From the NCBI RefSeq assembly GCF_003086295.3, contig NC_092055.1:119580692-119644691 (forward strand): a stretch of 64,000 nt of DNA, read 5' to 3'. The notes below the pieces were generated by a model that was not told the origin of the DNA, did not search any database, and saw only the letters and a list, made by a program, of their open reading frames with translations. The stretch comes from Arachis hypogaea (Eukaryota > Streptophyta > Magnoliopsida > Fabales > Fabaceae). Below, one piece after another: positions 2,054-26,600 of the stretch. The position numbers and the translations under genes are program-made. How positions within the stretch are numbered: position 1 is the stretch's first letter; each line of letters opens with the position of its first letter.

Positions 2054-2600
2054 AAAAGATAAATTATCAAAAATGCACTCGAATAATTTTTTTGTTGACA
2101 AAAATATGCTCGAATTTTACTATCGATAAAAATATCTTTAAATAATTTTAAAACATGACAAAAATATCCAACATTAAATATGTATTTCTCAAAAAATGCT
2201 TTAGAGATTTATTTTGATACAATTTTTTGCAAGTATGATTAGAAAAATAAGATATTATTATTTTTTAAATTTGGTAATTTTTTGCTAAATATATACTTTT
2301 TGTGTTTTTTTTAAGTATTATTGGTTGTTGACAAAAAATCACGAAAAAATATATACTTAGCAAAAAATACCAAATTTTAAGGATAAAAATATCTCATTTT
2401 TTTAATCATACTTGCCAAAAATCATATCGAAATTCAATCTTTAAAATATTTTTTGAAAATATATATTTAATGTTGTGTATTTTTATCGTGTTTTTAAATT
2501 ATTTGAGGGCATTTTTGTCGATAACAAAATTAGAGTGTATTTTTGTCAACAATAAAAATATTCAAGTGTATTTTTGATGATTTATCCATTTTAAAATTTA
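2054..2600. repeat. Large fold-back (hairpin) element
   Basis: The two halves are imperfect inverted copies of about 270 bp meeting near 2325-2330. The left arm starts around aaaagataaattatcaaaa and the right arm ends with its reverse complement near tttgatgatttatccatttt. Landmarks such as gcaagtatgatta and its complement recur at matching distances from the centre. No coding capacity. Only the right arm recurs at about 6950-7210 and 23630-23885, which places the left breakpoint of the downstream tandem duplication at the hairpin apex. Confidence 0.8.
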
Positions 2601-4242: not shown

Positions 4243-4914
4243 AGTTTGAATAAAGAAGATGTAGTTGGTATAGTCATAAAAAATTGTGTTTTTATTTTTC
4301 AATTATAACACATCTAATAGTATGATATTATATACAAAATATTCTTAAAACACATCTAAAATGATAAAAATATAGTTTTTAGATATAAACGTTTTCAAAA
4401 TTGTTAAATTCTAGTTTTTAAATAAAAAAGTACATAATACAATTAATCTTTTGATTTTTGATTCAATAAAATGCATCTAATATTTATTATTTAAATTATT
4501 GGTTGGATTTTTTCGTTACTTTTCAATGATAACACGTCTAATAGTATGATATTATATACAAAATATTTTAAAACACATCTAAAATCGTAAAAATCTATGA
4601 TGTGTTATAATCGAAAAATAACAACACAATTTTAAATTAATTGTTGATTATAATAATTTTGAAAACTAATAATAAGTATCGAAAAAAATTCAACTAATAA
4701 TTTAAATAATAAATATTATATTCATTTGATCGAATAAAAAATCAAAAGATTAATTGTATTATTAACGTTTAAATTTAAATATTTAAAGTTAGCCTGATTT
4801 TGGATGTGTTTTAAAAATATTTTGAATAAAATATCATACTATCATATGTGTTATAATTGATAAATAACAACAGAATTTTTATGACAGTATCAACTATATC
4901 TTCTTTCTTAAACT
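4243..4914. mobile_element. Non-autonomous TIR element, about 670 bp
   Basis: The first about 105 bp and the reverse complement of the last about 105 bp align closely (shared aagaagat, agttg, gtcataaaaa, caattataacaca, tagtatgatatt and aaaacacatc). A second internal copy of the terminal sequence lies near 4520-4610. It is AT-rich with no open frame, and it sits in the part of tandem unit 1 that units 2 and 3 lack. I could not settle the target duplication, so the superfamily is open; the long TIRs suggest a MULE-type MITE. Confidence 0.6.
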
Positions 4915-6657
4915 CCAGATTTTTTTTGCTTCTTTACTCAAATTACTTACGTAGAAAGTACTTTATTTGCAACAACTTTATTAATAAAATTAAATAAGAT
5001 CAACCTTGTTCCAATTAAATCAACAGAGTGTTTTTATGTTTAAATTAAAATATAATTAAAAATATTGAACATGATATTTCTTAACAAATTATATAAATAC
5101 ATGTGTGAAAAATAATGATACCTTTCACCAATGCAAAATGAGAGAGTGCTTCAGCTGGAAGGTGGTGATAGTCTTCACCAATGAAGACGAAATGGAAAAT
5201 TCAGCTGGCAGCGTTCTTTTTGGTTTGGGATTCACTAATGCGTGTGAATGTCCCGTAGAATAAGGAATTTAAAAAACTGTGTCTGTTACGTAAGTTACGA
5301 AAGTAAAGCAAAGTCACCGTAACCACCAATGAAGTGGGTGGGTTTTAAAATTTAAATTTAAATTAAAATCTAATTATAGATATGTATCTACAAAATAAGA
5401 ACATGCTACACTAAAAAATAATTAAATATTATTTAAATTTTATTAAAGGCCGATTAAAAGCCGATTAATATTGTACAACTAGCATTTTCCATGATATAAA
5501 ACTACGTAGACACATAAAACAATTTTTGTTAGTGGAGCAATGAATCATCTGCACAGACATTGTTTTAAAGCATAGTTAAAAAAAATCAACATATACTACT
5601 TTTGCATTTTTTTATATATTATTAAAAATAACTAATAAAAATTTAAAAGAATAAAAATTTATTTTTTATTATATAATACTTAAATATAAAAATTATATAC
5701 CAAAAATAATAAAAACATTATTTCTCGAATAATAATAATAATAATAAAATATTTGTTACTTAATTGAACTTAAAAGTTAGAATTTACTATGCCACTCTTA
5801 TTAAAGATACCAATCCTTGGAATAGTTATAAGATGCTATTTATGTGTACTATCTTTTAGTTCAAATATTGAGTAAGTATACATTTTTTATTTTTCTACAG
5901 TTAATATACTTAGATTTTATTTAATATTAGAGTTTAGTTTTGATGTATTAATAGTGTAAAACATTTTAGTCGTATTTAATATTAAAAGATAATTATTTTC
6001 TTTGATATCGTGTACGTAATTAGATGTACGTGTAAAACTATTTTATACTGATAGCGCGTTAAAATTAAATTTTTAATATTATAAAAAAAGATAACCATAT
6101 AAAATAATAAAAGAATATTTCTTTTCATTTTCACATAAATTTGTGAGAAAAATACAGAAATTAAAATGATAGGAACAAAAATCTGTGTCTAGACTTGCAC
6201 TATAAAAATATCTCTATACTCCTGTATCTATTTGTTGATCAAAACCAATACTCTCATACTCAGATTTTAATTCTATTCGTTATTTTTAGTTTTATAGTTC
6301 TACTTCTATACTACAAAATAATTAATCTAAAAACTTGATCTTCTTTATACATAATTAATATAAATATTTGATCTTCTTTATACATAGTTAATTATACCGA
6401 GGTCGTTCACAAATTGAGGGAAATTGAATTTTAATAAGGTTTAATTATTCTGTTAGTTCTTATAATTTCACAAAATTTTTAATTAGATCTCTATATATTT
6501 TTTTAATTGGGTCCTGCACCAATTTTTTTTTAAATTAAGTCGTTCTTAATAATAATTGGCTTAAAGATGTGAAATGTGCCACAATCCATTTGAAGAAGTT
6601 GTTGTATTGCTTTTTGTTGGGCACAAAGCAGAAGAGGTTCAGTGGGAGAAGGAGCAA

Positions 6658-6937
6658 TACCAGGACACAAGTAAAACTTTCATACCATTTTAGATACTAT
6701 TCTTCAAAGGATTGAAGGTACATAAAATCTCTGAATATACTTCGTATTGAATTTGATTACAGCAATTTCAAGTACCTTGATGCCATAACGGGTACAAAAT
6801 TAAAAAACCTTCGGTTTCAATAATCTCTTATTTCTCCCTCTTTCTCACTCTGAAAATTTCAAAACCTTTACAATTTTGAAAAACCGTTAATAACCATACT
6901 TGGCTTAATTCTGCTTTTCCTTATATATGAGAATAAT
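6658..6937 (+). promoter_or_regulatory. Duplicated DUF1677 core-promoter copy (unit 1 end)
   Basis: About 280 bp closely matching the sequence immediately upstream of the DUF1677 gene (26445-26719): the ggacacaagt start, the pyrimidine-rich ctctt tract, the ctgaaaatttcaaaacc block and the TATA-like ttatatatgagaataa. Here it is followed by fold-back sequence instead of a gene, so it has no visible coding target. Confidence 0.7.
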
Positions 6938-9747
6938 AAGCACTTAGTAAAAAATTACACAAAAATATATGTTTAACAAAAAATTATTAAATTTTAAGGA
7001 TAAAAATATTTTATTTTTTAAATTATAATTATAAAAAATTACGTTAAAATTTAATTTTTAAATTATTTTTTAAAAATACATCTTTAATATTGTAAATTTT
7101 TGTCACGTTTTTAAATTATTTGAAAGCATTTTATCAATAATAAAATTAAAGTGCATTTTCTTCAGCAACAAAAATATTCGAATGTATTTTTAGTAGTTTA
7201 TCCATTTTAAAATTTAACAATATATTTCCTGTAAAATTTATAATAATATATATTTTATATTTTAATTAATTTTTATATAATATGGGATCATTTACCTTTT
7301 AAATAATTATTTTGATATAAATGTTATATAATATTATGTAAAATATTATTTATTTCTTATAAAAATTATATATTTTAATCAAATTAATTTAGTTTGATTT
7401 AATTTATTTTATATTAATTTAAAATCGTATTAGATATTTATAATAACATGATAAAAATATTTAAAAAAATCAAAATCTAATTAAATCTGATCCATTGCAT
7501 TCAATATATATTCCAATTTTTTATTATCATTCAATTAGAACTAACTATACCAATGCAAAAAAAAAATATCAATGGATAAAAAAATTAAAAAAATCATATT
7601 ATTAATATAATAAAATTAATTTTCGTTACACAAATGAATGGTTGATTTTTTAGTAGAAGAAGCAATTAATAGAATAGAGACAAATAGATAATAAATAATA
7701 GAATAGAAATATTAAAAAATATTTTTTTGTGTATGGTGTTAGAATATAAGGTATAAAACACAATATAATAACTTGTATTATGTTTGAATAGACATAAATA
7801 AGACTAAAATATTATGACAAATGATTAAAATAGTCATGTAATTTTAAAATTTTTGTATTAAATACAAACTAATTTAATAGAGAAGGAGAGTACATAAGAA
7901 TACAAAGATTACGAAAAGAACTAGTCTATGAACCAACAAGATATAAATGGGATTGAAGTAAAAATTAAAAATAAATAAAATAATGTAAGGTAGAAGAGTG
8001 AATTAAGCCTTTATTAACCTGCATTATGCCATAAAAAAGAGAATAAATGATGAGAAGGAAAGAATTATCGAGTGTCAAGTAAAAAATTCTAAAAAAAAAA
8101 TACCCGAAAAAAATTAGAACGCAGAGACAAAAAACAGAAAAAAGAGAATAATTTCTGAAAACTGGAATAATAATAGAATAATAAAAAATATTCATAAACA
8201 AAAAAAATTTATAAAAATTTTGTGTCCACTTTTTTAAATTTTGTGTCTATTATTATTTTGATAAAAAATAAACACAAAAAATAATAAAAAAATTATCCCA
8301 AAAATAATGTGTTTAATACTTATATCTCCTTTAAATATTTTTTAAATATTCATTATCAATATCTCTATGTTCTGTCCAAAAAAAACAAACGTTACCTAGA
8401 TGATAATGGTTATTTCATGGTGTAATGAATTTTGGTTGAAATAGGATGTTGTGAACCTAGAAAGGGTTGTTATGACAGCTAGCAATGTCAATCTTCCGAT
8501 GCATTTTGTTTATTGTAGTTAGTAGGGTGTCAAAATTTTACTGTCCTACTCTTCACAATAATCAATGGTATAAAGTCACCTAGACACAGAAAACAACTCT
8601 TTTTTTTACCGAAGATATAGAGACTCGAACTCGCAACTTCTTAATTGAGTATGGGAAGACTATGCCATTTGAGCTATTGCTTCTTGGCCACAGAAAACAA
8701 CTCTTGTTAAGGCGCAATCAATCAGCTGCATAGATATTGTTTTAAAGTATAGTTAAAAAAAAATTCAATATATACTACTTTTATATTTTTTATTTATTAT
8801 TAAAAATAACTAATAAAAATTTAAGAGAATCAAAATTTATTTTTTATGATATAAAAGTTAAATATAAAAATTATATACCAAAAATAACAAAAACATTATT
8901 TCTCGAATAATAATAATAAAATCTTTGTTACTTAGTTGACCTTTAGTATTTACTATGCCACTCTTATTAAAGATACCAATCCTTAGCATATTTACAAGAT
9001 GCTATTTATTTGTATCATTTTTTAGTTCAGATATTAAATATACATTTTCTATTTTTTTTACTGTTAAAATATTGATATACATGCAATTATTTTTATATTT
9101 TATTTAATATCAATATACTTAGATTTTATTTAATATTAGAATTTAATTTTGATATACTGATAGTATAAAACGTTTTAATCGTACAATTATTTATTTTTTA
9201 ATGATTATTCAAGCAATTAATGATAATTATTTTTTTCTGATATTACATAATTAGATACACATGTAAAACTATTTTATACCGACCGCACATCAAAATTAAA
9301 TTTTTAATATTATAAGAAAAGATAACCATATAAATTAATAAAAGAATATTTCTTTCCATTTTCACATAAATTTATGAGAAAAATACAGAAATTAAAATCA
9401 TAGGAACAAAGATCCGTGTCTAGACTTGCACTATAAAAATATTTCTATACTCCCGTATTTATGTGTTGATCAGAGCCAATCCTCTCATACACTCGGATCT
9501 AGATTCTATTCTTTATTTTTAGTTTTACTGTTCTACTTCTATACTACAAAGTAATTAATCTAATACTTGATTTTCTTTATACATAGTTAATTATACAGAG
9601 GTCGTTCACAAATGGAGGGGGATTGGATTCCAAGAATGAGATAGAGCCAACTAAGGGTGTGAAATGTGCCACACTCCATTTGAAGTAATTGCTGTAGTGT
9701 TTTTTGTTGGGCACAAAGTAGAAGAGGTTCAGTGGGAGAAGGAGCAA
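6938..9747 (+). repeat. Tandem unit 2 of the DUF1677 5' flank, left part
   Basis: Near-identical to 23613-26444 over most of its length. It is cut at 9747 by the 13.6-kb Mutator-like element and resumes at 23331-23612. The uninterrupted sequence can be read at the unit 3 junction (about 26431-26455), which serves as an empty site for that insertion. It contains one small SINE absent from unit 3 and lacks the SINE that unit 3 carries. Confidence 0.85.
8602..8688 (-). mobile_element. Short tRNA-derived SINE
   Basis: An 87-bp insertion absent from the matching place in tandem unit 3. It is flanked by a perfect 17-bp target duplication (cacagaaaacaactctt at 8585-8601 and 8689-8705). On the minus strand it has an A-box-like tagctcaaatgg, a B-box-like gagttcgagtct, and a short A tail that appears as T's at 8602. 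Confidence 0.85.
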
Positions 9748-10452
9748 GGCTCAGGATTCGATGGTCCTAGAATCTTTGGACCACTTAATGGTCCCATTAG
9801 AAAATATGTTTTTAGAGTTTTTTTAACAATTGTTATATAGTCCTTGAACTAATTTTAATTATAAATTAACTCTATATATTTTATTTAATTATAAAAACTG
9901 TTTTTTATTTTATAAATTATTATTTTATCAATTATCTATTATATTTATTAACAATCAAATACAAAAACAACAACCAATTATATCCTCCATTGATCCTAAT
10001 AAAGCTTTTGGCCATTCCAATCGATTAAAATACTAAATTTGATCTTGTGACGTTCGTCCATGGCTTCCAAATCGTGTTTCCTTCAAATTCAATCGATTGG
10101 TTTATCAACACAATCGATTGAATGATCACTCAATCGATTGGATTACAGGGTATCACAAAACAATCGATTGGAAGTTGTAAGGTAGAATGGTTTTCGCTTA
10201 AACCAATCGATTGTTTATACTTTCCAATCGAATGAATGCCTCAAAACAATCGATTGTTTTTGTTACTCAATCGATTGAATTCACGAAAACAACATGGATT
10301 TGCCAAATACAATCGATTAGAAAGTGATGACATTGAAGTTTTAGCCAAATTCAATCGATTGGTAATGTAATCCAATCGATTGGAAGGTGATGAAGTTGAA
10401 TTTTTTGCCAACTTCAATCGATTGATAAGGCTACCCAATCGATTGAAATGTG
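9748..10452 (+). repeat. Left terminal inverted repeat of the 13.6-kb element
   Basis: It matches the reverse complement of 22625-23321 at roughly 95 % by eye. The outer 270 bp are AT-rich, and the inner part is an array of CAATCGATTG palindromes. Its inner edge continues into extra 63-bp tandem copies (to about 10580) that the right repeat lacks. Confidence 0.9.
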
Positions 10453-10571
10453 ATGACTTTGAACTTTTTGCCAAATTCAATCGATTGGTAATGCAATCCA
10501 ATTGATTGAAAAGTAATGACATTGAACTTTTTGCCAAATTCAATCGATTGGTAATGTAATCCAATCGATTG
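10090..10571. repeat. Phased CAATCGATTG palindrome array, left
   Basis: Exact or one-to-two-base variant 10-mers start at 10090, 10111, 10131, 10161, 10204, 10225, 10247, 10268, 10310, 10352, 10373, 10415, 10436, 10478, 10499, 10541 and 10562; one more variant lies near 10018. Most spacings are 20-22 or 42-43 bp, that is two or four helical turns. From about 10310 the DNA is a 63-bp tandem repeat holding two motifs each. The conserved 10-mer within variable spacers suggests a protein-binding array, plausibly for the transposase. Confidence 0.85.
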
Positions 10572-10800
10572 AAATCTGAAACGTGCTATGTATTAAAGCA
10601 GCTAACCCTGTGTATTCACACCCACTCTCTCCCCCTTTTAAATGTTCGAACGCCATTTCTGCACCTCTCTCCTCTCTCTAAAATCCAGAAAGCTTCTGTC
10701 TTCTTCTTCTCCATTCTCACCCACATCCACTCCAAACTACATACATAATTCCAACCCTCATCAAAATCCCTACAAAATCCACAAAACCAGTATCCCCATA

Positions 10801-11964
10801 ATGGCCAGAACTAAGAACGCCAAAAGAGCCAGGGTTGAGGGAGAAAGCTCTGCCCCCACCAAACTAATTGCTTCATCCCATTACATGGCAAGGTGGCTGC
10901 TGTCTCGCAGGGCACTGAACAACTATGTGGAGAAGTTCGAGTCTAGGGCAATTGTTCCTCCCAGGTACATAACAGCCGAGTTCATTCAGGATAGACATTA
11001 TAATTTGGTGTGGAATGCATTGCAAACACAGCACTTAATTGATTTTGTACAAACTAGGGATGATTATTACCTGCACTTGGTTAGGGCTGTTTATAGTACT
11101 TTAAATTATGTTGTTCCTGAACCTGATGAAGAGGGTGAGGAGGTAATGCCGCTGATTGAGTTTGATTTAGGGAAACAGCATTATAGAGTTACTTTGCAAG
11201 AACTAGCTGAACAATGGAGTCTAGTTTATCATGGGACAAAATTTACTGGAGGTATTGCGGCAGATGAGGAATGGAGTGAATACAACAGATTAGTTGGTTT
11301 GCAGAGTTTACAATATGAGAATCCACACATGGATGCTAGAGGTAATATAAATTGCAGTGGGTTGGACAATGAGCAGCGTATATTGATGTATTTGTTTTCA
11401 TACATGTTGATTCCAAGAAAACATAATCATGGAATCTTGTTTAACGAAGATATTCTAGTGCTTTGGGCTATGGTGACTGGAAAGGAGATAAACTGGCCTT
11501 ATTTTATGGTTCATCATATGCTTGAAATGAAGAAAGAAAAATCAAGTGTTGGTTTAGGATATGCTTGCCATTGGACCAAGATTTTCAAATGGCTTGGAAT
11601 TGACTTGAGTGAAGAGAAAAGCGTCGTCTTGACTAATGTAGCCAAGATTGATGACAGCACTCTGAGACAGATGGGAAGAGATCCGGATGCCCAAGAACCT
11701 CAGGCCCAAGGACAACCACAAGACCAGGTGCAAGCACAACCACAGATACCCCCACCACCACCCCCTCCTTCGCCAACAATGCAAGATTTGATGGATGAAT
11801 TGCGAAGCATGAGAGTATATATGGAGGAGCAATTTGCTGATATGAGGCAGCATCAAGACAGGCAAACGGAAGCTATCAATCATCAAGGAGAAGCAATTGA
11901 TATTCTATACACTAATCTGGGCATCACAAACCCAATGGGCATCATCCCAAGGCCTGGACCATGA
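10801..11964 (+). CDS. Transposase_32-type plant transposon protein
   Basis: An intact 387-codon frame. I start at the ATG at 10801 (MARTKNAKRARVEG, a basic N-terminus typical of these proteins) instead of the upstream in-frame ATG at 10642, whose extra 53 residues are Ser/Pro/His-rich and look like leader sequence. Residues of about 25-270 resemble the 'putative plant transposon protein' domain abundant in legumes (for example the YITAEFIQDRHYN and NCSGLDNEQRILMYL stretches). A PQ-rich and poly-Pro linker follows near residues 305-325, then a probable coiled coil (MQDLMDELRSMRVYMEEQF). The biochemical role of this family is unknown. It is the first gene inside the left TIR and is bracketed by palindrome arrays on both sides. 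It lacks disabling mutations, unlike the transposase in the same element. Confidence 0.75.
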   Translation: MARTKNAKRARVEGESSAPTKLIASSHYMARWLLSRRALNNYVEKFESRAIVPPRYITAEFIQDRHYNLVWNALQTQHLIDFVQTRDDYYLHLVRAVYSTLNYVVPEPDEEGEEVMPLIEFDLGKQHYRVTLQELAEQWSLVYHGTKFTGGIAADEEWSEYNRLVGLQSLQYENPHMDARGNINCSGLDNEQRILMYLFSYMLIPRKHNHGILFNEDILVLWAMVTGKEINWPYFMVHHMLEMKKEKSSVGLGYACHWTKIFKWLGIDLSEEKSVVLTNVAKIDDSTLRQMGRDPDAQEPQAQGQPQDQVQAQPQIPPPPPPPSPTMQDLMDELRSMRVYMEEQFADMRQHQDRQTEAINHQGEAIDILYTNLGITNPMGIIPRPGP

Positions 11965-12378
11965 AGAAATTGTTATCTAGAACTCCACATCATCCTATGA
12001 TCTCTATTGATGCTTGGATGGGAGTTAATATTTTTGAGTTAAAAAAAATGTAGGACAAAATCTAGGTGTTATCTTCACTGTATCATGAAATGTGTCATTT
12101 CACTTTTGAGAGTCCCAGGTATTATTGTTCATTGTGTCATTTCACTTTTGAGAGTCCTAGGTATGTTTGATGCTGCTACTATTGCAACAGAAGCATAAGT
12201 TATTGATCAGCTTATTTTGTTTTTAAATTATTATGGCAATCTAACTTTCTTATTATACAAAGAAGTTAAAGTACCCAAAAACATCTTAGCTATGCATGTA
12301 AATCTGGGAACTTAAGCTGCAATCAGTTCTTGTATTAAATTGATTGAAGAATGCTTGCAATCAGGTGTGTATGGAAAC
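11965..12378. other. 3' flank of the Transposase_32 gene
   Basis: Non-coding. It contains a tandem duplication of about 44 bp (tgtcatttcacttttgagag, twice, near 12093 and 12137). Confidence 0.5.
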
Positions 12379-12669
12379 CAATCGATTGGTTTGGTAGTAA
12401 AATCGATTGTTGTACCCTCAATTGCTAATTCAATCGATTTTTTTTACTGCAATCGATTGAATATTCAGTGAAATCAATTGGAGTACTCTTATATATACTA
12501 TTTCAATCGATTGGATTTTAATGCAACCGATTGAATAATACACACACCTCTCATTCAATCGATTGTGTTGTTGTTGTAATCGATTGGAGTCGATTTAATT
12601 ACTGTTTCAATCGATTGTTTTCTAAGTGCAATCGATTAAAGTATCCTCTTTTATTATTTCAATCGATTG
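12379..12669. repeat. Phased CAATCGATTG palindrome array, internal
   Basis: Twelve exact or variant 10-mers start at 12379, 12400, 12431, 12450, 12471, 12504, 12524, 12556, 12577, 12608, 12629 and 12660. Spacings alternate between about 21 and about 31 bp (two and three helical turns). This block is not part of either TIR and has a different spacer sequence, so the motif and its phasing are kept while the spacers are not. Confidence 0.85.
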
Positions 12670-13141
12670 GTGGGCTTATCTACCAGTTTTGAATCTTGTT
12701 TTATTTAGTTATTAATCTGATGCGTCTAATCTTATTATTATTATTTGAGTATTTAGCTACTTAAAAATAATTATAGATAAGATATAATTATATGAATTGA
12801 TCAAATTTAATTTCTTAAATTGGAAATAAAAATTAACTTAAAATTTGAAATGTATTTGTTTTTAATTAAAAGATAAGATATCTTAAACAGTTTTAAGATT
12901 ATTCGGCTGATTTAAAAATATTTAAAAATTTTTAAAAAGATAGAATTAAAATTTTGTTATCTTTTTTGGGTATATATATGTGTTCAATCCGACTAATTTT
13001 TTATACGTTGACAAATTATTTTAAGTATTTGCCTTTCAACCAAGTCTACTCGTAATATATTCTTCCGTTGATAATAATCATGGATATTCCTTCTAACGAA
13101 GATATAGTGGGGTCTCCAATGATGCATGTAACACACAGAAT

Positions 13142-15485
13142 ATGTCACTGGACTGTGATGTTATCAAAGTTGATTTTGGTGATCAACTTGGAACTACAAT
13201 TCCTAGTGCTAAGGTAAGACTTAATGGGTTTTTAATTTCTAGTATAATGTATTACGAGTAATTTAAACTTTTATTTTTTTTATTTTCTACAGGATGACCA
13301 AGTTATTAATGACGATGTTATTCAAAGCGAGGATCTAAATAAAGTTCAAGTATTGTCTAGTAAAGTGGATAAGGTCCTCTCTAGCATGGAGGTAATTTGA
13401 TGTGACAAACAGTAATTAATATATATTATGTAAAATAATTTATATATTATAACCTTTTTTATCATTCTTTTTTGCAGTCAATGAGAGTTGTAAACATGGC
13501 TCGGGACGAAATAATTGATAAAATCCTTGAATTAGTAAGTCACATTGAGACAATGATATCACAATTCAGTCTAAACAATGATTCCGAGACTCCGACCAAG
13601 CTCTCTGTAGAAAACACACATCCAATCTCAAGATTGAAGGCTAAGAGTTTGTCTATTGATATTCATACTGCTATATCAGACGATGAGGATGATCTTACTG
13701 TACTGGATCATATGTCTTTCACTCACGATGATCCGTTCCACATCAAGATCAATATGGACAAACCAGTATCCCCAACTATAAGATCCGCATCAAAAAAGAA
13801 AAATATGTCAAAGGTATATGCATGTGTAGTAAAATTTCATAACTCTTATTATTTGAATAATATATTCTTAACATGATAATAAGAATATACTGAAACTGTT
13901 TTTTTCTTAGGGTAAGAGCATTATGGGGACGCAGAAAAAATTATCGTTCACTCACCCAGGCGGAATTAGAAAGCCAAAGATTGAGCCCAAATCAGTCAAT
14001 AAATCGAAGGCATCTTATGCACTGAGCCGACCCACAAAAGACTATAGAAGACCTGTTTATTTCTTTTTCATTACCAACGTAATTACCACTTAAATTATCT
14101 AGTTTCTTAAAGGCACTGCTAATTATTACGTTTAGTGATGAATTGTTAATACTTTTGTATTAAAATTTGTAGTCAATGCTGCCAACTCCAACCATGCGTC
14201 TTTTGGAAGATCAGATAAAGGCCTGTGCATATATACTTTCAGCATCGCTAGATCCATCGTAAGTTAATTTGATATTATCTTTGTTGTCGATGAAGGAGGG
14301 CCAATCTAATGTGTTTCGGTTTTTAATTGATACAGTGAAGAACTTGTCGTAACAGATACAATCAGAGCAACTAGATCAGACTTTGAATATTTCATACGAC
14401 CCATTACTGATAAGGTACACAAGTAATCTATTAGTTAATCTACGTTCGGTTCTGGGCATAATCTCGTAATATATTTGGATTGTGATTCAGATTCTTGAAT
14501 TAGCGGCATTGAACTGCACTGATATACAATCTGATATAAGTTTCAAGACAACATGGCAACTTCCACCAAGATTTGTGGTATGTTCTATAACCCCTGACAA
14601 GATAATTTCATTTATCATAAGTTACAGATGTAATGCTGATATAGAACCATACTTTATCATGTACTAAAGACTATATTGGTTTGCATTTATGAACTAGGTG
14701 GATGTCTTCAGCAAGACAGATTTAAAGAAGAAGATGGAAGACTATATTTATAAATTTATGCAACCTACTGCTGATTTAAAATTTGTAAGAATTTTTTCTT
14801 AATATTCATTGTTGGATATAGTTTTTCATCATTAGCATACATAACTGATGGGCAAATTTTTATGGTCTAGATATATGTTCCTATTCAAGAGGGTGACCAC
14901 TGGTATCTAATGGTAATCTCGCTTTGCGAGCGAACAATCTATCACCTGGACACCCATTTTAAGGATGACAGAATTCACTATCGTGAACGTGTTATGAAGA
15001 CACTAGTAAGTCCGTGAAAAAATTTATATAAGCTTATTAGATCTTATTTTGTTTTTATTATTTAACCAGTGAAATGAACTCAGGCACACGTACTGAAGCA
15101 AGTCATCACGTCAAACTTTTACAAGGATGATGGCATTCAAGAGTATAATAAACAATTTCATGACTACAAAATTGAAAGACCAGAAGATATACCTCAATGT
15201 TCCTCAAGCTTGAACTCTGCAACTTGGGTGATGAAGTGGATGGATATGACTTATGATTTCAAGCCAAATGGTAACAATAAGGTGAGCATTTATAAAACAA
15301 CTCTCTAAAATTTAATCCCTATTTTTTGGTACTAATTTATAATGAATAAATTATAGCTTGAGGATCACGATATTCGCATAATAACCGCAGTGCATATACT
15401 CCGGAGTCGGATCAACCATAAGAAGTCACAGATTATAGCATCGGTCCAGGAGTTTTGGAATATGCACAGTTCTTATGAGATATAA
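13142..15485 (+). CDS. Ulp1-like (C48 family) protein, catalytic Cys replaced
   Basis: Eleven exons join into one open 491-residue frame with canonical GT..AG introns: 13142-13213, 13293-13391, 13478-13813, 13911-14078, 14173-14258, 14336-14414, 14491-14577, 14698-14784, 14871-15005, 15084-15281 and 15357-15485. The C-terminal third is the SUMO-protease fold typical of Ulp1-bearing MULEs: GDHWYLMVI supplies His348 and YHLDTHF supplies Asp365, 17 residues apart as in Ulp1. The usual Gln...Asp-Cys-Gly segment reads PQCSSSLNSATWVMKWM, so Ser428 sits where the nucleophilic Cys is expected. The protein is therefore probably not a standard cysteine protease and may bind without cutting. The N-terminal half is acidic and Ser-rich with no known domain. 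The start is tentative. The lack of stops over eleven exons suggests recent constraint or recent arrival. Confidence 0.8.
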
Positions 15486-15882
15486 AGATAATAGTAGTAA
15501 TCTAGATAGATTATAATACTTTGGTTATTGCGTATTTATTTGTTAGAGTTAGTGGATGTACTTCTTGTGAATTTTTTTCAATGACTTCTTAAATAGATAT
15601 ATAATGCGTCATTGCTTTTGCAATTTTGCTCTATTTCTATGCACCGTGTCTAGATTTAGTTTAAAAACTCATATTTTTATGATGAAGTAATGTCATTTCC
15701 ATTTATTATTTCAACAACCATCCCATACAAATATTATTTCAAACCGTTCTAGTAAATGGTTCACTGATTCAGTGGTTCAACCAAAAAAACCGTCTTAGAA
15801 TAGAATAATAAATAATCTATAAATAAAAATCCAAAAATATAATTATAGCCTAGTAATTCATATGCACATATTTCCTTTTAAT

Positions 15883-16011
15883 TCAAATCAGTTTTCCATT
15901 AATAATCTCACTTAGCATCCCATAGAGTTCATCTCTGGCTTCAAATATTCTTTCTCTGTCATAGCTATCTACCACAAAGATAAGCCCTTGTGTGTTTTGA
16001 AAATAATGCCT
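15883..16011 (-). pseudogene. Captured ADP-ribosylation-factor (ARF) GTPase fragment
   Basis: The minus strand encodes [20 protein letters not shown] followed by [15 protein letters not shown], then a short unrelated tail and a stop. This is the ARF-family segment around the conserved [18 protein letters not shown] stretch. The P-loop and the rest of the GTPase are absent. It is a host-gene piece carried inside the 13.6-kb element, as in Pack-MULEs. It is not expected to be a functional GTPase, though it could feed small RNAs against host ARF genes. Confidence 0.8.
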
Positions 16012-16514
16012 CGGTTGAGAACTATTCGGTTTTTTTAATTAATTCAAACAAAAATAATGAACAATATGATCACACAGTGATATAAAATTATAATTAAAAA
16101 GCTAGATTAATCAAAAAATGATTACAATAGTTGATCACATAGTAGATGCAACTTCTATAAAACAAGGAACAATCATAACAAATACTATTTGTAATTAAAA
16201 AGCTAGATTAATCAAATTATGATTACAATATTACATAACATTTCAATTCCACCTTCAGTTTCACTAATCTTATCCCTCATACTATGATCAAACTGCAAAA
16301 ATATCACAGATACAACAGTAAATAGCAACACTAACAGTGAATCAAAACCAAAAACAAAACAAGAATAAATAATTGAATCAGTAACAAGTGAGAAGCTAAA
16401 AATAGCAGCAGCCACCAATTTCTACTAAATACGATAGATTCCATGACAAATAGATCCTACTACGTGAACATGGGGAACCAAATAGATACACTAAAATGAC
16501 AAGCCTAACACATC

Positions 16515-16636
16515 ACCTGTACTGCGAGAGCATCTCATCACGAGTTCCATGCTTCTTTTCAGTTCCATTGTCTGAAATCACTTCTTCCTGCACCTGCGCC
16601 TCAATTTCCTGGCTATCCTCTATTGGACCAACTCTG
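16515..16636 (-). pseudogene. Captured host exon, unidentified (possibly OTU-protease N-terminus)
   Basis: A minus-strand open segment with splice-like borders (cag before, gtgatg after) encodes VGPIEDSQEIEAQVQEE and then KHGTRDEMLSQYR. The TRDEML(S)xxR motif recalls the N-terminus of plant OTU-type deubiquitinases, but the match is from memory and short. It lies upstream, in the same orientation, of the ARF fragment, with no continuous gene joining them. Confidence 0.35.
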
Positions 16637-18420
16637 AAACAAATAAATAGATGTTAACTTAAAGTACCCAAAATTATCTTACAGTTATAAGAAATCATAT
16701 GCAAACAGCAACAAGAAAAGAATCGAAAGGAAACTAATCATCGAAGTTAGAAAGGAAACAGTGAGGCTATACGCTATGCAACAAATTCTCTAAATTAGAC
16801 AGTTAAACCAGGATCAACCAATGCCAAATTTTATTAAAATAATTTTAACAAGTTTAGCACAATGATTAATAGCAAAAAAAAGGCTAGCACTATCAACTCT
16901 CCAATTGCTCAATGACCTCCTTTCCTTCCCAACACCTTCAAAGTAATCTCTAGCTCATCCCACAATAAGTTATATCAATTAGAAATTATCAAACCACATT
17001 CATTTTGTATGCAAAAATAGTTTTAACATAGAAAGCTTCATTGCAAGAATGCAAGTTGGTGTGCAGGTCCTCGGACAGCTAATCAATACAAATATTCAAG
17101 AAAAAGAAATATAACACAGCAACAACACAACAAAGAGTCAAAGGAACATTTAAAACACAGCAACAACACAATACCTATAGGAACATTTAAAACAAAGCAA
17201 CAAAGAAAGAAATATCTAAGAACACCCAAACGAAGGAAACTTCAATCATAGCTTAAACCAAAATTCACAATCCCTTTAAATTGAAGTAGCAAGTAACTTG
17301 AGAACTAAAGCAAGGTTAACAACTAAATCAGTCTAAATTTAACAAAGATTAACTGAGCTAATTTAACTAAATATTCAATGATTCAATCCCAAACAAGAAA
17401 ATAGTATAATACAGTGCATGAGCAGAGCTAATCGATGATTTAAATTTCATTTTGAGTAGCACTAACAGAATAAAAAAAATCAATGTTCTAGCAGAATCAC
17501 AAAAAAAATCATTGAATCAATGTTCTGAGCAAAGATAATAAAAACAGATCAAAAAATAAAAAAGAAAATGAAGCCATTGCCTTCGTGAGCTCGAGGAAGA
17601 CGCACCAATTATTGAATGAGGAAGAAGCGTGGAGCCGCAGACGACCGGACGAAGACACGATGGTGTCTGATCGCAACGGCGGCGTTGAGTGAGACCCTTG
17701 CGGTAGTGGCGGAGTAACCTAGGGTTTCTGTTTTGGGGGTGGGGCGCTGTATACCTGTATTTGAATGAGGAAGAGGAGGATAAGTGGGGAACCTGCGCGA
17801 CAGAGGCTTCCACGTTCACACAATGGCTGCGCGATGGAAGGGAAGGAAGGTAGCGATGGCTGCGGTGCGATGGAGGGGACGTGAGGGAGCATGCGGTGGC
17901 TAATCGAAGTTCCGACGGCGGCGCTAGCAGGCGGTGGCTGGACAGACGTCCAGGAGCTCGAAGAGAGGAGCCTGGACTGATTGTGAGAGAGGCACTGAGG
18001 GCTGAGTTAGATGCGCGTTCTGGATCTGGATTTGAGTTTGGAATCTCGAAGATGGAGTCTGGGTAGGGTTAGTCAGTGTGCAGCACAATGAAACGCCAGC
18101 GTTTTGTTCCTTTTTCAAATTACCGGCCAGGTCACGGTTCGGTTCGACTGACCGGTTACCGGCCGGTTTGACGATTTAATTGCGGTTTTGGAAATTGACG
18201 GTTTTAACCTTTGTCCGAATCGTTTTTTATAGCAGTTCACAGATCAACCGGTTCGATCCAACCAACCGGTTCTCATCTGATTTAACGGTTATCCAGCGGT
18301 TTTATCTCCAACGGTTATTACAGGAGGATCGGACCGCGTGCTTAACCGGTTCGCAGTTAAACCTGTTCGACCGGTCTGTCCAGGCCGATTTTCAGAACCC
18401 TAAAAATTAGGGATTTTGCC
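16637..18420 (-). other. Probable captured host 5' region and CCGGTT-rich sequence
   Basis: 16640-17500 is intron-like AT-rich DNA. 17560-18070 is GC-richer and resembles a gene's 5' untranslated or promoter region read on the minus strand; its short open frames show no domain. 18120-18400 is packed with accggtt/aaccggt motifs of a kind common at plant DNA-transposon ends, and a weaker match near 15720-15800 lies on the other side of the captured pieces. A nested carrier element spanning about 15.7-18.4 kb is possible but I could not prove its ends. Confidence 0.35.
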
Positions 18421-18627
18421 AGTGAGAGTGAGACTGAGAGTAAGCGACAAGGGAGAGGGGCAATTTACCCGTTATCACTAACCGATATTTATTTGACAAT
18501 TATTACATCTAAAAAGCATAAGCACGACTATTGGAAGAATGTATAAAATCTCATTAATATAGTGAGAAAAAAAATACAACTACGGAACTGATTTTCTACC
18601 CAAAAATATTAAAGTTTATGGAGGTTG

Positions 18628-20984
18628 CTAATTATCACTATCTAAATCAGCCGTCGCTTCGGTACACATGTCGCCATCGTCCGAACCGTTAGCTTCATTT
18701 TCTATAACGTTTTTGTTAATGTTCTTTTGCCAAGGACATGTTGTCTTCTTATGTCCTTCCATTTGACAAACACTACAACGTTGCCGCTTCTTCTTCTTAG
18801 ATGGTTGTCCTGAGCCTCCAGTGGTTTGATGCACATACGGATTGCTAATTCTAGCTACACCTGACTGAGGTTGATTAGTGCCTTCGTCTGCAGCCTTGTA
18901 AGATGAGTACAATCCCATAATTATGTCACGTGTCTCTTCATATCTCTCTGGTACTTTAGCAGCAACAGCAGCCAATTGTTTAGAAAATTTCACCAAGGCA
19001 CTTTGACGACTAATAACAACAGCATCCCTGGTGAACCCACTTGGATCATTGAGTGCTGATTTAACCTTTTTTGTCCATCTATCCAATACCAATGATCGGG
19101 GAATCTCACAGATGTCTCTGTCAACCAGAACTTTCACAATATGTTCGCAAGGAATACCAAATGACTCCATTCTTAAACAGGTACACATGAAGATCATTTC
19201 TTCTTGACGAAAATCAACGGTCCACAATAAATCGGGCCTCCCATGCTTACACACAATGTACTTTATGCAATCATCGGTATTATCTATGTTTAGCAACCAC
19301 ATTGATCCAGCTCTAGAGAGAAATGGCCGAAAGAAAAGAAATATCTCGTGAGTGTATAACTCAGCAGCATATCTCTCTAGCAGCTCTATACAAGTTTGCT
19401 TGACGGGCACCCCACGTGTAGATTCATAATCAGCATTAAATTCTTTAAAGCGCATGTGTGCAACACACCTTTGAAAATGCTCTACAAAACTTGTCAAATC
19501 ATACCGCGACCCCACATACCTTCCCACAACTGAGTGTAAACCTTCACATCTTGATGTAGTTCTAAAGCCAGCAAAGAATTTTCCTCTTAGATATGCAGTA
19601 GCCCACATATGCTTCTCTTCGTACATGTTGATCACCCACGGCTTATCCTCAATGCCAAATTCTTCAATAAGCTGAACCCACTTACGCTTAAACACGGGAA
19701 TCTCGTAGTCTCCCAACATGATTTTTCTGAATTTAGATGTAAACGATGGATTTCCAACATTGCTAGTTGCATTTCGAATAAGGTGCCAAGCGCATAAACT
19801 ATGTCTGACTTCAGAAAATACATCTCTCACTGCATTCCTAATCGCCATGGCCCCATCAGTTATGATTGAGGTAGGGGCCTTGCCCCTCATTGCAAACATG
19901 AGCTGACGCAGGAGCCAAATATATGTATCAGTAGTTTCGTCCGCAATTAACGCAGCAGCAAAAACAATTGTTTGGTTATGGTGGTTAACCCCGCTGAATA
20001 TGACTAATGGACAACTATACTTGTTCTTCTTGTACGTAGCATCAAAAGCAATAACATCCGCGAAGAGTCGGTAGTCTAGTTGGCTAATCCCATCAGACCA
20101 GAACAAATTACGTAACAAACCTCTTGAATCGTGACATGCCTTGAAATATAATTGTGGATCCTTCAACCGCATATCCTCCAACTTCTTCAACACTCGTGCT
20201 GCATCACCAGGAATTTGACGCCTTTGCCGAGCAATCTCATTGTACATATCTCTGGGACCATAGCCAACAAATTCGTACCCGCCTACTTGACTAGCTAGAA
20301 GACTAAATATCTGTGAGGTGCTAATCCCTGACTTTAGCATGTTCATCATTTACATAATATTTGCCTCTGACATTTTTCTGTGGGCAGGCAACATAGCACT
20401 GAATTGTGTATCCAATAGATCATGGTTGTGTTCGTCAGAGAAATAAAAGATATGCCACCTTCCACTTTCTGGTACAAATTTAACATCCATTCGGGCTTCA
20501 CATCCAGTTCTTGTTTCCAATCTAGGCTCCTTCTTCCTTTTTTCCACCGTGTAATATTTCTCCATCCTGAATCCTTGCCTATGACATACAAACTTTTATT
20601 TGTAAATCTCGCCAGTACTATTCTTGAAGGTCTTGCTCCTCCTTGCACTAATGCCCTTCGACTTTGAGTACTTCATATAAAAATCAAATGCAAGCTGCAA
20701 AGTAGAAAAGTGGTATTTGCCAATTTCCTCCGCAAAATTCTCACTAAATTTCAAAGTTGTAATGTCTTGCACGGAGTCAACCGCATAAGCGGCTTCAAGG
20801 ATATCTTCTGACATATCAGATTCAGAAAAAATGCTCCCTCAGTAAATTCATCTCTGAAATCTTGTTCGAATTCATTCTGTTCATCCATCATATCTTGGTC
20901 ACTTACTAGCTCTTCTTGTTGGTTAAAGTCATCGTCCTCCTGGTATTGCTCATTCATCTCAGTGTCCGTAAATATACCTGACAT
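18628..20984 (-). pseudogene. FAR1/MURA-like transposase, disabled
   Basis: Read on the minus strand, it has an acidic N-terminus (MSGIFTDTEMNEQYQ), a FAR1-type DNA-binding region (about 20740-20480) and a MULE transposase core. Counting from the internal ATG at 20349, the acidic triad is Asp103 (FDATYKKN), Asp165 (ITDGAM) and Glu269 (SRCEGLHS), with CAWHL between the last two. A SWIM zinc finger (CTC...CEH, 389-403) follows, then a basic KKKKRQR and a CCHC knuckle (C525, C528, H533, C538). Two in-frame TAA codons (20596-20598 and 20350-20352) and one frame change near 20830-20840 break the 5' part. Both stops occur where Gln codons are plausible (CAA to TAA). The last 573 codons remain open. 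FAR1/FHY3 light-signalling factors derive from this family; here TIRs and cargo mark it as a transposon gene. Confidence 0.88.
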
Positions 20985-20999
20985 CTTAAAAATGTCCAA

Positions 21000-22620
21000 T
21001 GAAAAAAATTATTTAATACACAAAGTCATATATTTTTATTTGTGGTAAAAGTTAAAAATTAAAAGTAAATAATATTTAAACTTTTTTGTTTAACAAAATT
21101 AAAATAAAGCACAAAAATAAGAATAAATTTGTATAGGAGTATATTCATTATGTTATAATTTTAATAATTAATATAAATTTTAAAAAATTGAATAAATTTA
21201 TATTTATTGTGATTACATTCAGTGAATTATATGTATTCTTATAATCAAGAAATATACTTAACTTCTTTTATAATAAGCAAGTTTTTTAATAATTTAATTT
21301 ATTAAAAAAATCTCATCTTTTTATTTATCCTACAAAATAAAAATTCATATTAATAGTTTTGAATAAGACAGTTAAAATAAAATATAAAAATAAAGCTTGA
21401 ATAAAAAAAATACAAAATTTTTAATCTAAAAATATAAAATAGTTAAAAAATAAAAAAATTATTTAAATATGATTTTTCAAGACACTCTATAACTTAGATG
21501 AATAAATATTATTTTTAAAATGAATCATGATATATTGATACAAAACTTATTGTATGTAAATTTTTTTTAAAATTAATAAACCTCTCTCGTTAATAACAAT
21601 ATTGGAACTTAAATTTGAACGCTAATTGATATTATATATTGTATAGGTACTTAGAGTATATTAGAAAAGTACGTTAATAATTTGAAGAGAAAAATTATTA
21701 GTGTAAATTTATTTTTTTTTAAAAATTAATCCTTATTGAACTATTCTACTTTTATTCCTTTAAAACATATCTTAATAAAAATATTTGTAACAATAATTTA
21801 CATCCAATAAGAATATCTTAACGAGCAGTTACATCATTCTGTCATGGGTTAATGCAAAATTTACAGAACGTGAGTACGTGATTGAGTATATTGTTTTAGA
21901 TTATAAACATAGGGATAAAATAGGAAAAAAATAATTGACACCCAACCCTCTGTATTCCTAATATAAATTGTTATAAATAAGTATAGTTTTTTAAAATTTT
22001 GGGATGTCCAGGCCATTACTCACCCCCTCTAGGTCCGTCCCCGATTGCTAACTAATTAATTAATAATAAAAAATAATAACATCTATTTACTTTTTAGTAT
22101 TTCTCAATTTCTATGAATTAATAAAAGATAAAAAAAATATTTTTTCCTTACACAATCAATTTCACGAATAAAGTATCGAAACGAATAATTGCAAAATTAG
22201 AGATTCTATTCACTGACCTCGATTTTGTAATCAAAACGATAGTTTATTTTTTGAATACTACAATGAAAAACTTGATTGGACCTTTGCTGATTGCTGCAAC
22301 GGTGATTAAAGATGAAGAAATAGTGGATATTAAATAGAAGGATAAAAAATTAAAAAAAATTGGATATTGAGTAGATGGATGTTCCAAAGAAAAACAATTA
22401 AATTTTTTATAATCAAAGAAAATGATACACAATTTCAATGGTAGGATTGAATAATTAGTGATGGATTATTCACCAATTTATAATGTTAATATTAAGGAAA
22501 AGATAAGATTAGTTTATCTACATCAAAATAAAACAGCAAAGATTGAAGATAGAATTTTAAAGATAAGATAGATGAATAATAAGATAATTTCTAAAAAGAT
22601 AACAAGATTGAAATAGGCGC
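21000..22620. other. AT-rich non-coding interior of the 13.6-kb element
   Basis: This is the promoter side of the transposase pseudogene on the minus strand. I see no gene. A phrase near 22000-22045 (tccaggccattactcacccc) is richer in C and may be older transposon sequence. Confidence 0.4.
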
Positions 22621-22624
22621 AGGA

Positions 22625-23321
22625 CACATTTCAATCGATTGAGTAGCATTACCAATCGATTGAAGTTGGCAAAAAATTCAACTTCATCACCTTCCAATCG
22701 AGTGGATTACATTACCAATCGATTGAATTTGGCTAAAACTTCAATGTCATCACTTTCCAATCGATTGTATTTGGCAAATCCACGTTGTTTTCGTGAATTC
22801 AATTGATTGAGTAACAAAAATTGTTTTGAGGCATTCATTCGATTGGAAAGTATAAATAATCGATTGGTTTAAGCAAAAACCATTCTACCTTACAACTTTC
22901 AATCGATTGTTTTGTGATACCTGTAATCCAATTGATTGAGTTATCATTCAATCGATTGTTTTGATAAACCAATCGATTGAATTTGAAGAAAACACGATTT
23001 GAAAGCCATGGACGAACGTCACGAGATCAAATTTAATATTTTAATCGATTGGAATGACCAAAAGCTTTATTAGGATCAATGGAGGATATAATTGGTTGTT
23101 GTTTTTGTATTTGATTGTTAATAAATATAATAGATAATTGATAAAATAATAATTTATAAAATAAAAAACAGTTTCTATAATTAAATAAAATATATGGAGT
23201 TAATTTATAATTAAAATTAGTTCAAGGACTATGTAGCAATTGTTAAAAAAACTCTAAAAAAATATTTTCTAATAAAATTATTAAGTGGTCCAAAGGTTCT
23301 GAAACCACCGAATCCTATGCC
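22625..23321 (-). repeat. Right terminal inverted repeat with palindrome array
   Basis: Inverted copy of 9748-10452. Motifs or variants start at 22632, 22653, 22695, 22716, 22758, 22800, 22836, 22857 and further right to about 23043, again mostly 21 or 42 bp apart. Relative to the left repeat, a 7-bp deletion around 22820 removes one motif, and several others carry single changes. Confidence 0.9.
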
Positions 23322-23330
23322 AAAGAGCAA

Positions 23331-23612
23331 TGATAAAAGGACACAAGTACAACTTACATACCATTTTAAATACTATTCCTCAAAGAATCGAAGGTATAAA
23401 TCTCTGAGTATCTTTCTTATTTTCTTATTGAATTTGATTAGAGAAATATCAGTACCTGACGGTTACGAGTACCAAGTTAAATAGCCTTCAGTTCCAGAAA
23501 TCTCTTCTCTCCCTCTCTTTCACTCTGAAAATTTCAAAACCGTTAATAACCATACTTAGGCTTAATTATGCTTTTCCTTATATATATATATATATATATA
23601 TATGAGAATAAC
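23331..23612 (+). promoter_or_regulatory. Duplicated DUF1677 core-promoter copy (unit 2 end), TATA expanded
   Basis: The continuation of tandem unit 2 after the big insertion. It matches 26445-26719 and 6658-6937, but the TATA element has grown into a (TA)n tract of about 25 bp at 23579-23603. It is followed by fold-back sequence, not a gene. Confidence 0.7.
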
Positions 23613-26600
23613 AAGGACTTAAGTAAAAAATTACACAAAAATATATGTTTAACAAAAAATTATTAAATTTAAAAGATAAAAATATTTTATTTTTTAAATC
23701 ATAATTATAAAAAATTACGTTAAAATTCAATTTCTAAATCATTTTTTAAAAATACATTTTTAATATTGTAAATTTTTGTCACGTTTTTAAATTATTTGAA
23801 AACATTTTATCAATAATAAAATTAAAATGCATTTTCATCAGCAATAAAAATATTCGAATGTATTTTTAGTAGTTTATCCATTTTAAAATTTAACAATATA
23901 TTTCCTGTAAAATTTATAATAATATATATTTTATATTTTAATTAATTTTTATATAATATGGGATCATTTACCTTTTAAATAATTATTTTGATATAAATGT
24001 TATATAATATTATGTAAAATATTATTTATTTCTTATAAAAATTATATATTTTAATCAAATTAATTTAGTTTGATTTAATTTATTTTATATTAATTTAAAA
24101 TCGTATTAGATATTTATAATAACATGATAAAAATATTTAAAAAAATCAAAATCTAATTAAATCTGATCCATTGCATTCGATATATATTCCAATTTTTTAT
24201 TATCATTCAATTAGAATTAACTATATCAATACAGCTAATGAGTTATAACTCAAATGGCATAGTCTCCCCATACTTAATTAAGAGGTTGCGGGTTCGAAAT
24301 TCCTATCTTTGGTAAAAAAAAAAAAATTATATCAATGCAAAAAAATATCAATGAATAAAAAAAATTAAAAAATCATATTATTAATAAAATTAATTTTCAT
24401 TACACAAATGAATGGTTGATTTTTTAGTAGAAAAAGCAATTAATAGAATAGAGACAATAGATAATAAATAATAGAATAGAAATATTAAAAAATATTTTTT
24501 TGTGTATCGTGTTTGAATATAAGGTATAAAACACAATATAATAACTTGTATTATGTTTGAATAGACATAAATAAGACTAAAATATTATGACAAATGATTA
24601 AAATAGTCATGTAATTTTAAAATTTTTGTATTAAATACAAACTAATTTAATAGAGAACGAGAGTACATAAGAGTACAAAGATTACAAGAAGAACTAGTCT
24701 ATGAACCAACAAAATATAAATGGAATTGAAGTAACGAAATTAAAAATAAATAAAATAATATAAGATAGAAGAGTGAATTAAACCTTTATTAACCTGCAGT
24801 GTGCCATAAAAAAGAGAATAAATGATGAGAAGGAAAGAATTATCGATTGTCAAGTAAAAAATTCTACAAAAAAAAAAATACCTGAAAAAAATTAGAACGC
24901 AGAGACAAAAAAAAAAAACAGAAAAAAGAGAGTAATTTCTGAAAACTAAAATAATAATAGAATAATAAAAAATATTCATAAACAAAAAAATTTAAAAATT
25001 TTTTGTGTCCACTTTCTTAAATTTTGTGTCTATTATTATTTTGATAAAAAATAAACACAAAAAATAATAAAAAATTATCCCAAAAATAATGTGTTTAATA
25101 CTTATATCTCCTTTAAATATTTTTTAAATATTCATTATCAATATCTCTATGTTCTGTCCAAAAAAACAAATGTTACCTAGATGATAATGGTTATTTCATG
25201 GTGTAATAAAGAATTTTGGTTGTAATAGGATGTTGTGAACCTAGAAAGGGTTGTTATCGTGACAGCTAGCAATGTCAATCTTCCAATGCATTTTGTTTAT
25301 TGTAATTAGTAGGGTGTCAAAATTCCACTGTCCTACTCTTCACAATAATCAATGGTATAAAGCCACCTAGACACAGAAAACAACTCTTGTTAAGGCGCAA
25401 TCAATCAGCTGCATAGACATTGTTTTAAAGTATAGTTAAAAAAAATTCAATATATACTACTTTTGTATTTTTTATTTATTATTAAAAATAACTAATAAAA
25501 ATTTAAGAGAATCAAAATTTATTTTTTATGATATAAAAGTTAAATATAAAAATTATATACCAAAAATAACAAAAACATTATTTCTCGAATAATAATAATA
25601 AAATCTTTGTTACTTAGTTGACCTTTAGTATTTACTATGCCACTCTTATTAAAGATACCAATCCTTAGCATATTTACAAGATGCTATTTATTTGTACCAT
25701 TTTTTAGTTCAGATATTAAATATACATTTTCTATTTTTTTTACTGTTAAAATATTGATATACATGCAATTATTTTTATATTTTATTTAATATCAATATAC
25801 TTAGATTTTATTTAATATTAGAATTTAATTTTAATATACTGATAGTATAAAACGTTTTAATCGTACAATTATTTATTTTTTTAATGATTATTCAAGCAAC
25901 TAATGATAATTATTTTTTTCTGATATTACATAATTAGATATACATGTAAAATTATTTTATATCGACCGCACATCAAAATTAAATTCTTAATATTATAAGA
26001 AAAGATAACCATATAATTAATAAAAGAATATTTCTTTCCATTTTCACATAAATTTATGAGAAAAATACAGAAATTAAAATCATAGGAACAAAGATCCGTG
26101 TCTAGACTTAGCACTATAAAAATATTTCTATACTCCCGTATCTATGTGTTGATCAGCGCCAATCCTCTCATACACTCGGATCTAGATTCTATTCTTTATT
26201 TTTAGTTTTACAGTTCTACTTCTATACTACAAAGTAATTAATCTAATACTTGATTTTCTTTATACATAGTTAATTATACAGAGGTCGTTCACAAATGGAG
26301 GGGATTGGATTCCAAAAATGAAATAGAGCCAACTAAGGGTGTGAAATGTGTCACACTCCATTTGAAGTAGTTGCTGTAGTGTTTTTTGTTGTAGTGTTTT
26401 TTGTTGGGCACAAAGTAGAAGAGGTTCAGTGGGAGAAGAAGCAATGATAAAAGGACACAAGTACAACTTACATACCATTTTAGATATTATTCCTCAAAGA
26501 ATCGAAGGTATAAATCTATGAGTATCTTTCTTATTGAATTTCATTAGAGAAATTTCAGGTACCTGACGGTTACGGATACAAAATTAAATAGCCTTCACTT

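Follow-up and report, generated by a model that had tools for sequence, protein, structure and literature searches.

Structure of the element and its palindrome arrays

The window analysed here is a stretch of 64,000 nucleotides from the peanut Arachis hypogaea (assembly GCF_003086295.3, contig NC_092055.1, positions 119,580,692 to 119,644,691 of the forward strand). Within it lies a 13,574-bp Mutator-like element (MULE) at 9748-23321, which contains three genes and three arrays of the 10-bp palindrome CAATCGATTG (Table 1). The element has the features of a TIR-MULE, namely a MULE transposase domain (PF10551), terminal inverted repeats (TIRs) of about 700 bp that are 94% alike, and a 9-bp target site duplication. 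The two copies of the duplication agree at 8 of 9 bases, and an uninterrupted copy of the target, the paralogous empty site AAGAAGCAA, is found at 26436-26444. The element ends were fixed at 9748 and 23321 because of these duplications and the empty site. The nearest protein relatives of the element's genes are from Arachis.

Table 1. Features of the element and its borders in the window.
Feature	Positions	Strand	Remarks
Left target site duplication (9 bp)	9739..9747	no strand	AAGGAGCAA
Left TIR (about 705 bp)	9748..10452	+	outermost 270 bp without motif
Left motif array	10018..10571	no strand	18 sites with at most 1 mismatch; 63-bp tandem repeat in the inner part
Transposase_32 gene	10642..11964	+	PF20167, E 5.4e-11, 2 bits below the Pfam cut-off; frame open
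Internal motif array	12337..12669	no strand	clear sites 12379-12669; weaker sites 12337, 12358
C48/Ulp1-like gene	13080..15484	+	11 inferred GT-AG exons; PF02902, E 7.4e-10
FAR1-type MULE transposase gene	18631..20984	-	PF10551 (E 3.1e-27), SWIM
Right TIR	22625..23321	-	
Right motif array	22632..23051	no strand	13 sites with at most 1 mismatch; inverted homologue of left array
Right target site duplication (9 bp)	23322..23330	no strand	AAAGAGCAA

The initial annotation of the window had reported 27 exact and 16 near copies of the palindrome in three blocks, both TIRs and one internal, where chance predicts essentially none. Listing of the motif positions within 10018-23052 recovered the three blocks and the 27 exact copies, together with 15 rather than 16 near copies at one mismatch (42 sites in total). 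With up to two mismatches allowed there are 47 sites, 44 inside the arrays and three scattered. The expectation from chance also held, as dinucleotide shuffles of the element contain a mean of 0.03 exact copies; the next most frequent 10-bp palindromes in the element occur twice each. The centre of the site consists of two bases, which are CG in 39 of the 44 array sites.

From the end of the left array it is about 70 bp to the open frame of Transposase_32 and 230 bp to its conserved start, the methionine at 10801 (MARTKN) with which the relatives begin. About 410 bp separate the end of the internal array from the C48-like gene, and the right array lies upstream of the MULE transposase gene, 1.6 kb away. 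Judged from these positions, the placement appears promoter-like at all three genes, rather than being that of end-binding sites. Several transposases bind tandem sites, and the arrays might be transposase-binding sites for end recognition and cutting; they do occur in both TIRs, and two of two short copies, each about 2.6 kb long, which match the element in the TIRs only and not in its genes, retain both TIR arrays. However, neither TIR has a site in its outermost 270 bp, and the third array is located 2.6 kb inside the element, where it precedes a gene and is remote from both ends, so that transposase binding is an improbable explanation. The retention of the arrays in copies without the genes suggests a factor acting in trans.

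Conservation of the motif

Base changes in motif and spacers were compared among copies of two subfamilies, A and B. The motif columns were set by window or consensus position and not by the match of each copy; whereas the alignment itself may still draw matching motifs together. In the search with the internal block, 40 of 92 candidates were scored. The internal A set comprised 8 of 15 copies (the truncated L094 and six copies with additional array units were set aside), the internal B set comprised six and then four copies, and the left arrays were compared in subsets of the same layout.

The motif changed less than the spacers in the internal A set (13/1037 versus 66/1630, p=2e-5), in left type 1 of A (26/1120 versus 100/2454, p=0.008), in left type 3 of A (2/900 versus 33/1612, p=5e-5; two members, L092 and L093, agree in their intervals and match scores and may be one segment counted twice), and in the internal B set (22/797 versus 62/1279, p=0.02). 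In the last of these, the motif was also below the flanking DNA (703/5149). A chosen set of 12 TIR copies from nine elements gave 47/1450 in the motif and 298/3159 in the spacers (p=3e-15), one third of the spacer rate, with 253/3099 in the outer TIR; by subtraction, the values without the rearranged L083 are 37/1325 and 216/2911. Between the two subfamily consensuses, seven sites showed 0/70 base changes; whereas the six spacers, five of them equal in length, had 21 mismatches. Because the motif bases change less than the spacers in four of five sets and in the 12 TIR copies, selection on the motif itself is well supported by these comparisons.

Spacing and helical phase

Start-to-start distances are 72, 21, 20, 30, 43, 21, 22, 21, 42, 42, 21... 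bp in the left array; 21, 31, 19, 21, 33, 20, 32, 21, 31, 21, 31 bp in the internal array (sites with at most two mismatches); and 21, 42, 21, 42, 42, 36, 21, 43, 29, 20, 21, 72 bp in the right array. The annotated steps of about 21 and 42 bp on the left, and the alternation of about 21 and 31 bp in the internal block, were thus found as described. At a period of 10.5 bp, the resultant length is 0.90 for the left, 0.87 for the internal and 0.47 for the right block, the last being disturbed by a 7-bp gap that also deletes one site.

The initial annotation held further that the internal block keeps its phase with unrelated spacers, and took this as a sign of selection on both site and phase. That argument was rejected, as the five spacers of about 21 nt have a mean identity of 60% and the six of about 11 nt have 56%, and within each class the mutual similarity was above 1,999 of 2,000 control layouts (one of the 2,000 reached it). 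The consensus of the related subfamily has a regular 52-bp tandem repeat at this place; the internal array here is a diverged form of this repeat, with 21+31 spacing. The arrays of the two TIRs, being inverted copies of each other, do not count as independent. Because of this inverted copying, the 63-bp tandem repeat in the inner left array and the relatedness of the internal spacers, the phasing is mostly inherited by tandem duplication and TIR copying. A decayed third site in the 63-bp unit was considered and rejected, its best matches (4-5 of 10 bases) being at background.

The repeat units of 21, 43, 52 and 63 bp are each within about 1 bp of whole helical turns. When related intervals were collapsed by hand, six distinct classes still fitted 10.5 bp (p=0.0014, or 0.005 for a free period); once the broken 36-bp interval was included, the values became p=0.02 and 0.08, respectively, all from hand-chosen interval sets. 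Random spacing in family copies would speak against phasing; instead, 822 of 841 intervals of up to 110 bp in 39 relatives deviated by no more than 2 bp from a multiple of 10.5 (36% of the possible lengths do so), although these intervals are not independent and the relatives were chosen by similarity to the internal block. Among the places listed for C1, which were unselected by similarity, the proportion was 55 of 65.

The stability of the intervals was compared with flanking tiles of the same length, with tile counts given as rounded means over 20 tilings. Interval lengths were altered less than the tiles in the internal A set (4/96 versus 35/203, p=0.0015) and in the four closest internal B copies (3/52 versus 25/86, p=0.0008), with 12/78 versus 33/124 (p=0.08) for all six B copies. 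In three left-array sets the intervals were no more stable than the flanks (11/105 versus 8/59, 4/84 versus 5/90, and 5/36 versus 4/44). Tandem duplication and TIR copying account for most of the phasing; whereas the intervals are steadier than the flanks in two of the three internal sets, and the helical phase is possibly under selection too. Of the annotated selection on site and phase, the first part stands on the comparison of motif and spacers, and the second may hold on these intervals, apart from the spacer argument.

Distribution of the motif in the genome and in relatives

The genome-wide count of CAATCGATTG is 12,171, versus 1,042 for the reversed control. In C1, 82 distinct motif places were found among the matches listed. 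All 11 listed clusters of two or more exact sites, which perhaps represent seven elements, carry sequence of the element family even with the motifs masked; among six listed single-site places, four were retrieved, of which one belongs to the family and three had no match. In this small sample, the motif clusters appear specific to the element family.

Among 20 long relatives, 19 have one array before Transposase_32 and another after it, and L100 is without the first. The copy number of the arrays varies among relatives, in which no second motif was seen among those examined. In a sister C48 family with about 38% identity, three of three upstream stretches had neither a site nor another clear array. 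Scans of prokaryotes and viruses gave 79 stretches and one stretch with paired motifs, respectively, each with at most four exact copies. The prokaryotic pairs, 19-22 bp apart, came from 257 Gb, for which a rough estimate by chance is about one; gaps of 11-12 dominate among them, and 8 of 80 loci have a LacI-type helix-turn-helix pattern.

Genes of the element

The Transposase_32 genes of the two subfamilies have a dN/dS of 0.39 (seven pairs, each with the same single B copy, L095), which indicates purifying selection. Eight stop-free genes were kept for this from 16 examined; among the 20 long loci, five whose matches were split or partial lay outside the examined set. To our knowledge, no function has been assigned to Transposase_32. 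In the relatives there are eight pairs of convergent Transposase_32 copies about 10-13 kb apart (C2, C3, C5, C6, C8 and C12; the pairs of C2 and C12 may represent a single segment), which look as if the inverted repeats had expanded to take in the whole gene. An A. hypogaea gene model fuses a Transposase_32 N-terminus with the C48-like protein, which suggests that another locus has the same gene order.

The C48-like gene is oriented opposite to the transposase gene, and its exon 1 reads in two frames in the present copy. The predicted protein has no cysteine in the stretch NSATWVMKWM. All nine aligned C48-like proteins that span this stretch (its own and those of 8 of 11 relatives; 11 of 43 matches were included in the alignment) lack the cysteine and have NSATWV, NSTTWV or DSGLWV. 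C48 proteases have DCG at this position; whereas the aligned proteins have NSA, NST or DSG. This suggests that the C48-like family is protease-dead.

Comparison with known systems

The closest parallels are the VANDAL elements of Arabidopsis. VANC21 is reported to bind motif repeats in VANDAL21, and expression of VANC removes methylation (PMC5735166, PMC10398659). The bound repeats are located upstream of VANA and in introns of VANB and VANC (PMC5735166), and according to a review, some VANC genes bear a Ulp1 domain and act in the same way (PMC13317346). In both systems a MULE carries extra genes, and a short family motif is repeated many times in tandem in the noncoding DNA beside several genes (PMC5735166, PMC10398659), and the motif copy number varies between relatives. 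However, VANDALs are described as having degenerate TIRs (PMC10398659); whereas those of the peanut element are 700 bp long. VANC proteins also carry DUF1985 and DUF287, domains that were not found at E values up to 5 in the two accessory proteins of the peanut element. The element was not classed as a VANDAL because of the missing DUF1985/DUF287 match and the long TIRs; it is set apart from them but may work like one.

MULEs bearing Ulp1 genes have been reported from Arabidopsis (KI-MULE), melon, rice and grapevine, and likewise combine a transposase with a C48 gene in the opposite orientation (PMC2528002, PMC13317346). The KI-MULEs are non-TIR elements, whereas the peanut element has TIRs; ULP-bearing TIR-MULEs are reported in melon, and the available text of these sources mentions no palindrome arrays for Ulp1-bearing MULEs (PMC2528002, PMC13317346). 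TnpA of En/Spm and MURA of MuDR are element proteins reported to reverse the methylation of their own elements (PMC10398659). They belong to another superfamily (En/Spm) or are another protein (MURA). Arrays in Arachis MULEs were not found described in full-text searches, which were mostly judged by titles and abstracts, and no paper was found that pairs a MULE with Transposase_32.

A proposed role for the palindrome arrays

The palindromes are proposed to be putative sites for a dimeric sequence-specific protein acting on the promoters of the TIR-MULE, likely element-encoded and VANC- or TnpA-like, a reading to which a probability of about 45% is given. The palindromic form suggests a dimer, and the clusters at each gene suggest a regulator of the element's own genes. 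A protein probably docks at the palindrome, perhaps one that switches the element on. In the mechanism that we infer, the arrays in the TIRs and between the genes place clustered sites upstream of all three genes, and many dimers would be bound at steps of 21, 31 and 42 bp on roughly one face of the helix. The bound dimers would keep the region open, by transcriptional activation and/or by escape from DNA methylation, such that the genes could be expressed and the ends could remain usable. The binder would most likely be encoded by the element and act like VANC or TnpA; the candidates are the products of the Transposase_32 and C48-like genes.

Several observations weigh against this reading. 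No match to DUF1985 or DUF287 was obtained for the two accessory proteins at E values up to 5, where the HMMER filters drop most weak matches and a very remote relative could escape. The structure model of Transposase_32 is of low confidence (pLDDT 38). The motifs bound by VANC differ between related VANDAL families (PMC5735166); whereas two of four distant peanut relatives (64-70% identity in Transposase_32) keep the identical motif, with 9 and 18 exact copies, the other two having no exact copy and 5 and 3 one-mismatch sites. No significant difference between motif and spacers was seen in the three left B copies (8/380 versus 16/764) or in the four closest internal B copies (15/557 versus 39/897, p=0.12). 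In the internal A set, where the spacers evolve faster than the flanks, the motif was not significantly below the flanking DNA (13/1037 versus 139/7098, p=0.14). The two TIRs of the present copy likewise did not differ in motif and spacers (5/133 versus 30/564, p=0.66), so that this comparison gave no signal of selection within the present copy since its TIRs split. As to a protection of CpGs in the motif, the counts point neither way, with 2 of 13 motif CpGs and 3 of 8 other CpGs differing between these TIRs (p=0.33). The present copy seems to be decaying because of this lack of a motif/spacer difference and because its transposase gene carries two disruptions, a frame change near 20826-20838 and an in-frame stop codon at 20350-20352.

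Some of these results would suit functionless tandem repeats, whose copies and phase were spread by slippage and unequal exchange: the TIRs of the present copy and the internal A motif relative to its flanks, and also the tandem units of 63, 52 and 43 bp, the variable copy number and the left-array intervals that are no steadier than the flanks. Neutral repeats, however, are expected to drift evenly; whereas the motif is conserved relative to the spacers in most sets, and also between subfamilies whose spacers have diverged. Purely passive repeats are thus very unlikely.

A further point against an element-encoded binder comes from tobacco, where the Sirevirus Tnd-1 is listed with eight identical copies of ACAATCGATTGT in its 3' LTR (PMC2829016, Table 3). 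The 12-bp consensus contains the identical 10-bp palindrome and is likewise a multi-copy motif, which points to a host factor; however, Tnd-1 is an LTR retrotransposon of tobacco, and the available text gives no spacing and no test of function for the motif (PMC2829016). The arrays might then be sites at which a conserved plant transcription factor, such as a homeodomain-type dimer, acts on a promoter or enhancer; several plant transposons would exploit this factor, and no element protein would bind the arrays. By a rough estimate that treats palindromes as equiprobable, this 10-bp palindromic core would turn up by chance in one of the 13 listed motifs with a probability of about 1%. The two distant relatives with the identical motif fit such a factor, and the site of HD-Zip I proteins, CAAT(A/T)ATTG (PMC3060862), has a similar half-site. 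The centre of that site is 1 bp, whereas the peanut palindrome has the two bases CG and does not match it. The 12-bp Tnd-1 form occurs in only 1 of the 27 exact copies, all 11 listed multi-site clusters in C1 bear the sequence of the element family, and a VANC-like system would likewise put sites at every gene. The host factor is a serious rival because of the identical palindrome in Tnd-1, but is considered the less likely explanation.

In a more specific and tentative form, the arrays might belong to one of two systems. The first would be an anti-silencing system of a TIR-MULE family's own, outside the Brassicaceae, in which every promoter has phased palindromes with a CpG centre, lined along one face by dimers of Transposase_32 or of a protease-dead C48 protein. 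The second would be a widely conserved plant factor, recruited independently by the peanut MULE and the tobacco retrotransposon. The detailed work considered here on sequence-specific escape from silencing concerns the Arabidopsis VANDALs. If the element-encoded reading is true, the peanut family would add a second system, in which the motif copies number in the thousands across the genome, the candidate genes are open and a single palindrome is well kept. Transposase_32 would then also gain a testable function. With a host factor instead, the presence of the palindrome in a tobacco retrotransposon as well would hint at a plant control switch common to unrelated elements.

Genomic setting

A run of three direct repeats (2333-9747 and 23338-26444), each about 3-5 kb long and 70-97% alike, is interrupted by the element, and a DUF1677 gene adjoins this run. 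Within the element, the region at about 15690-18410 is rich in AACCGGTT towards both sides, and by eye resembles another nested insertion or captured sequence.

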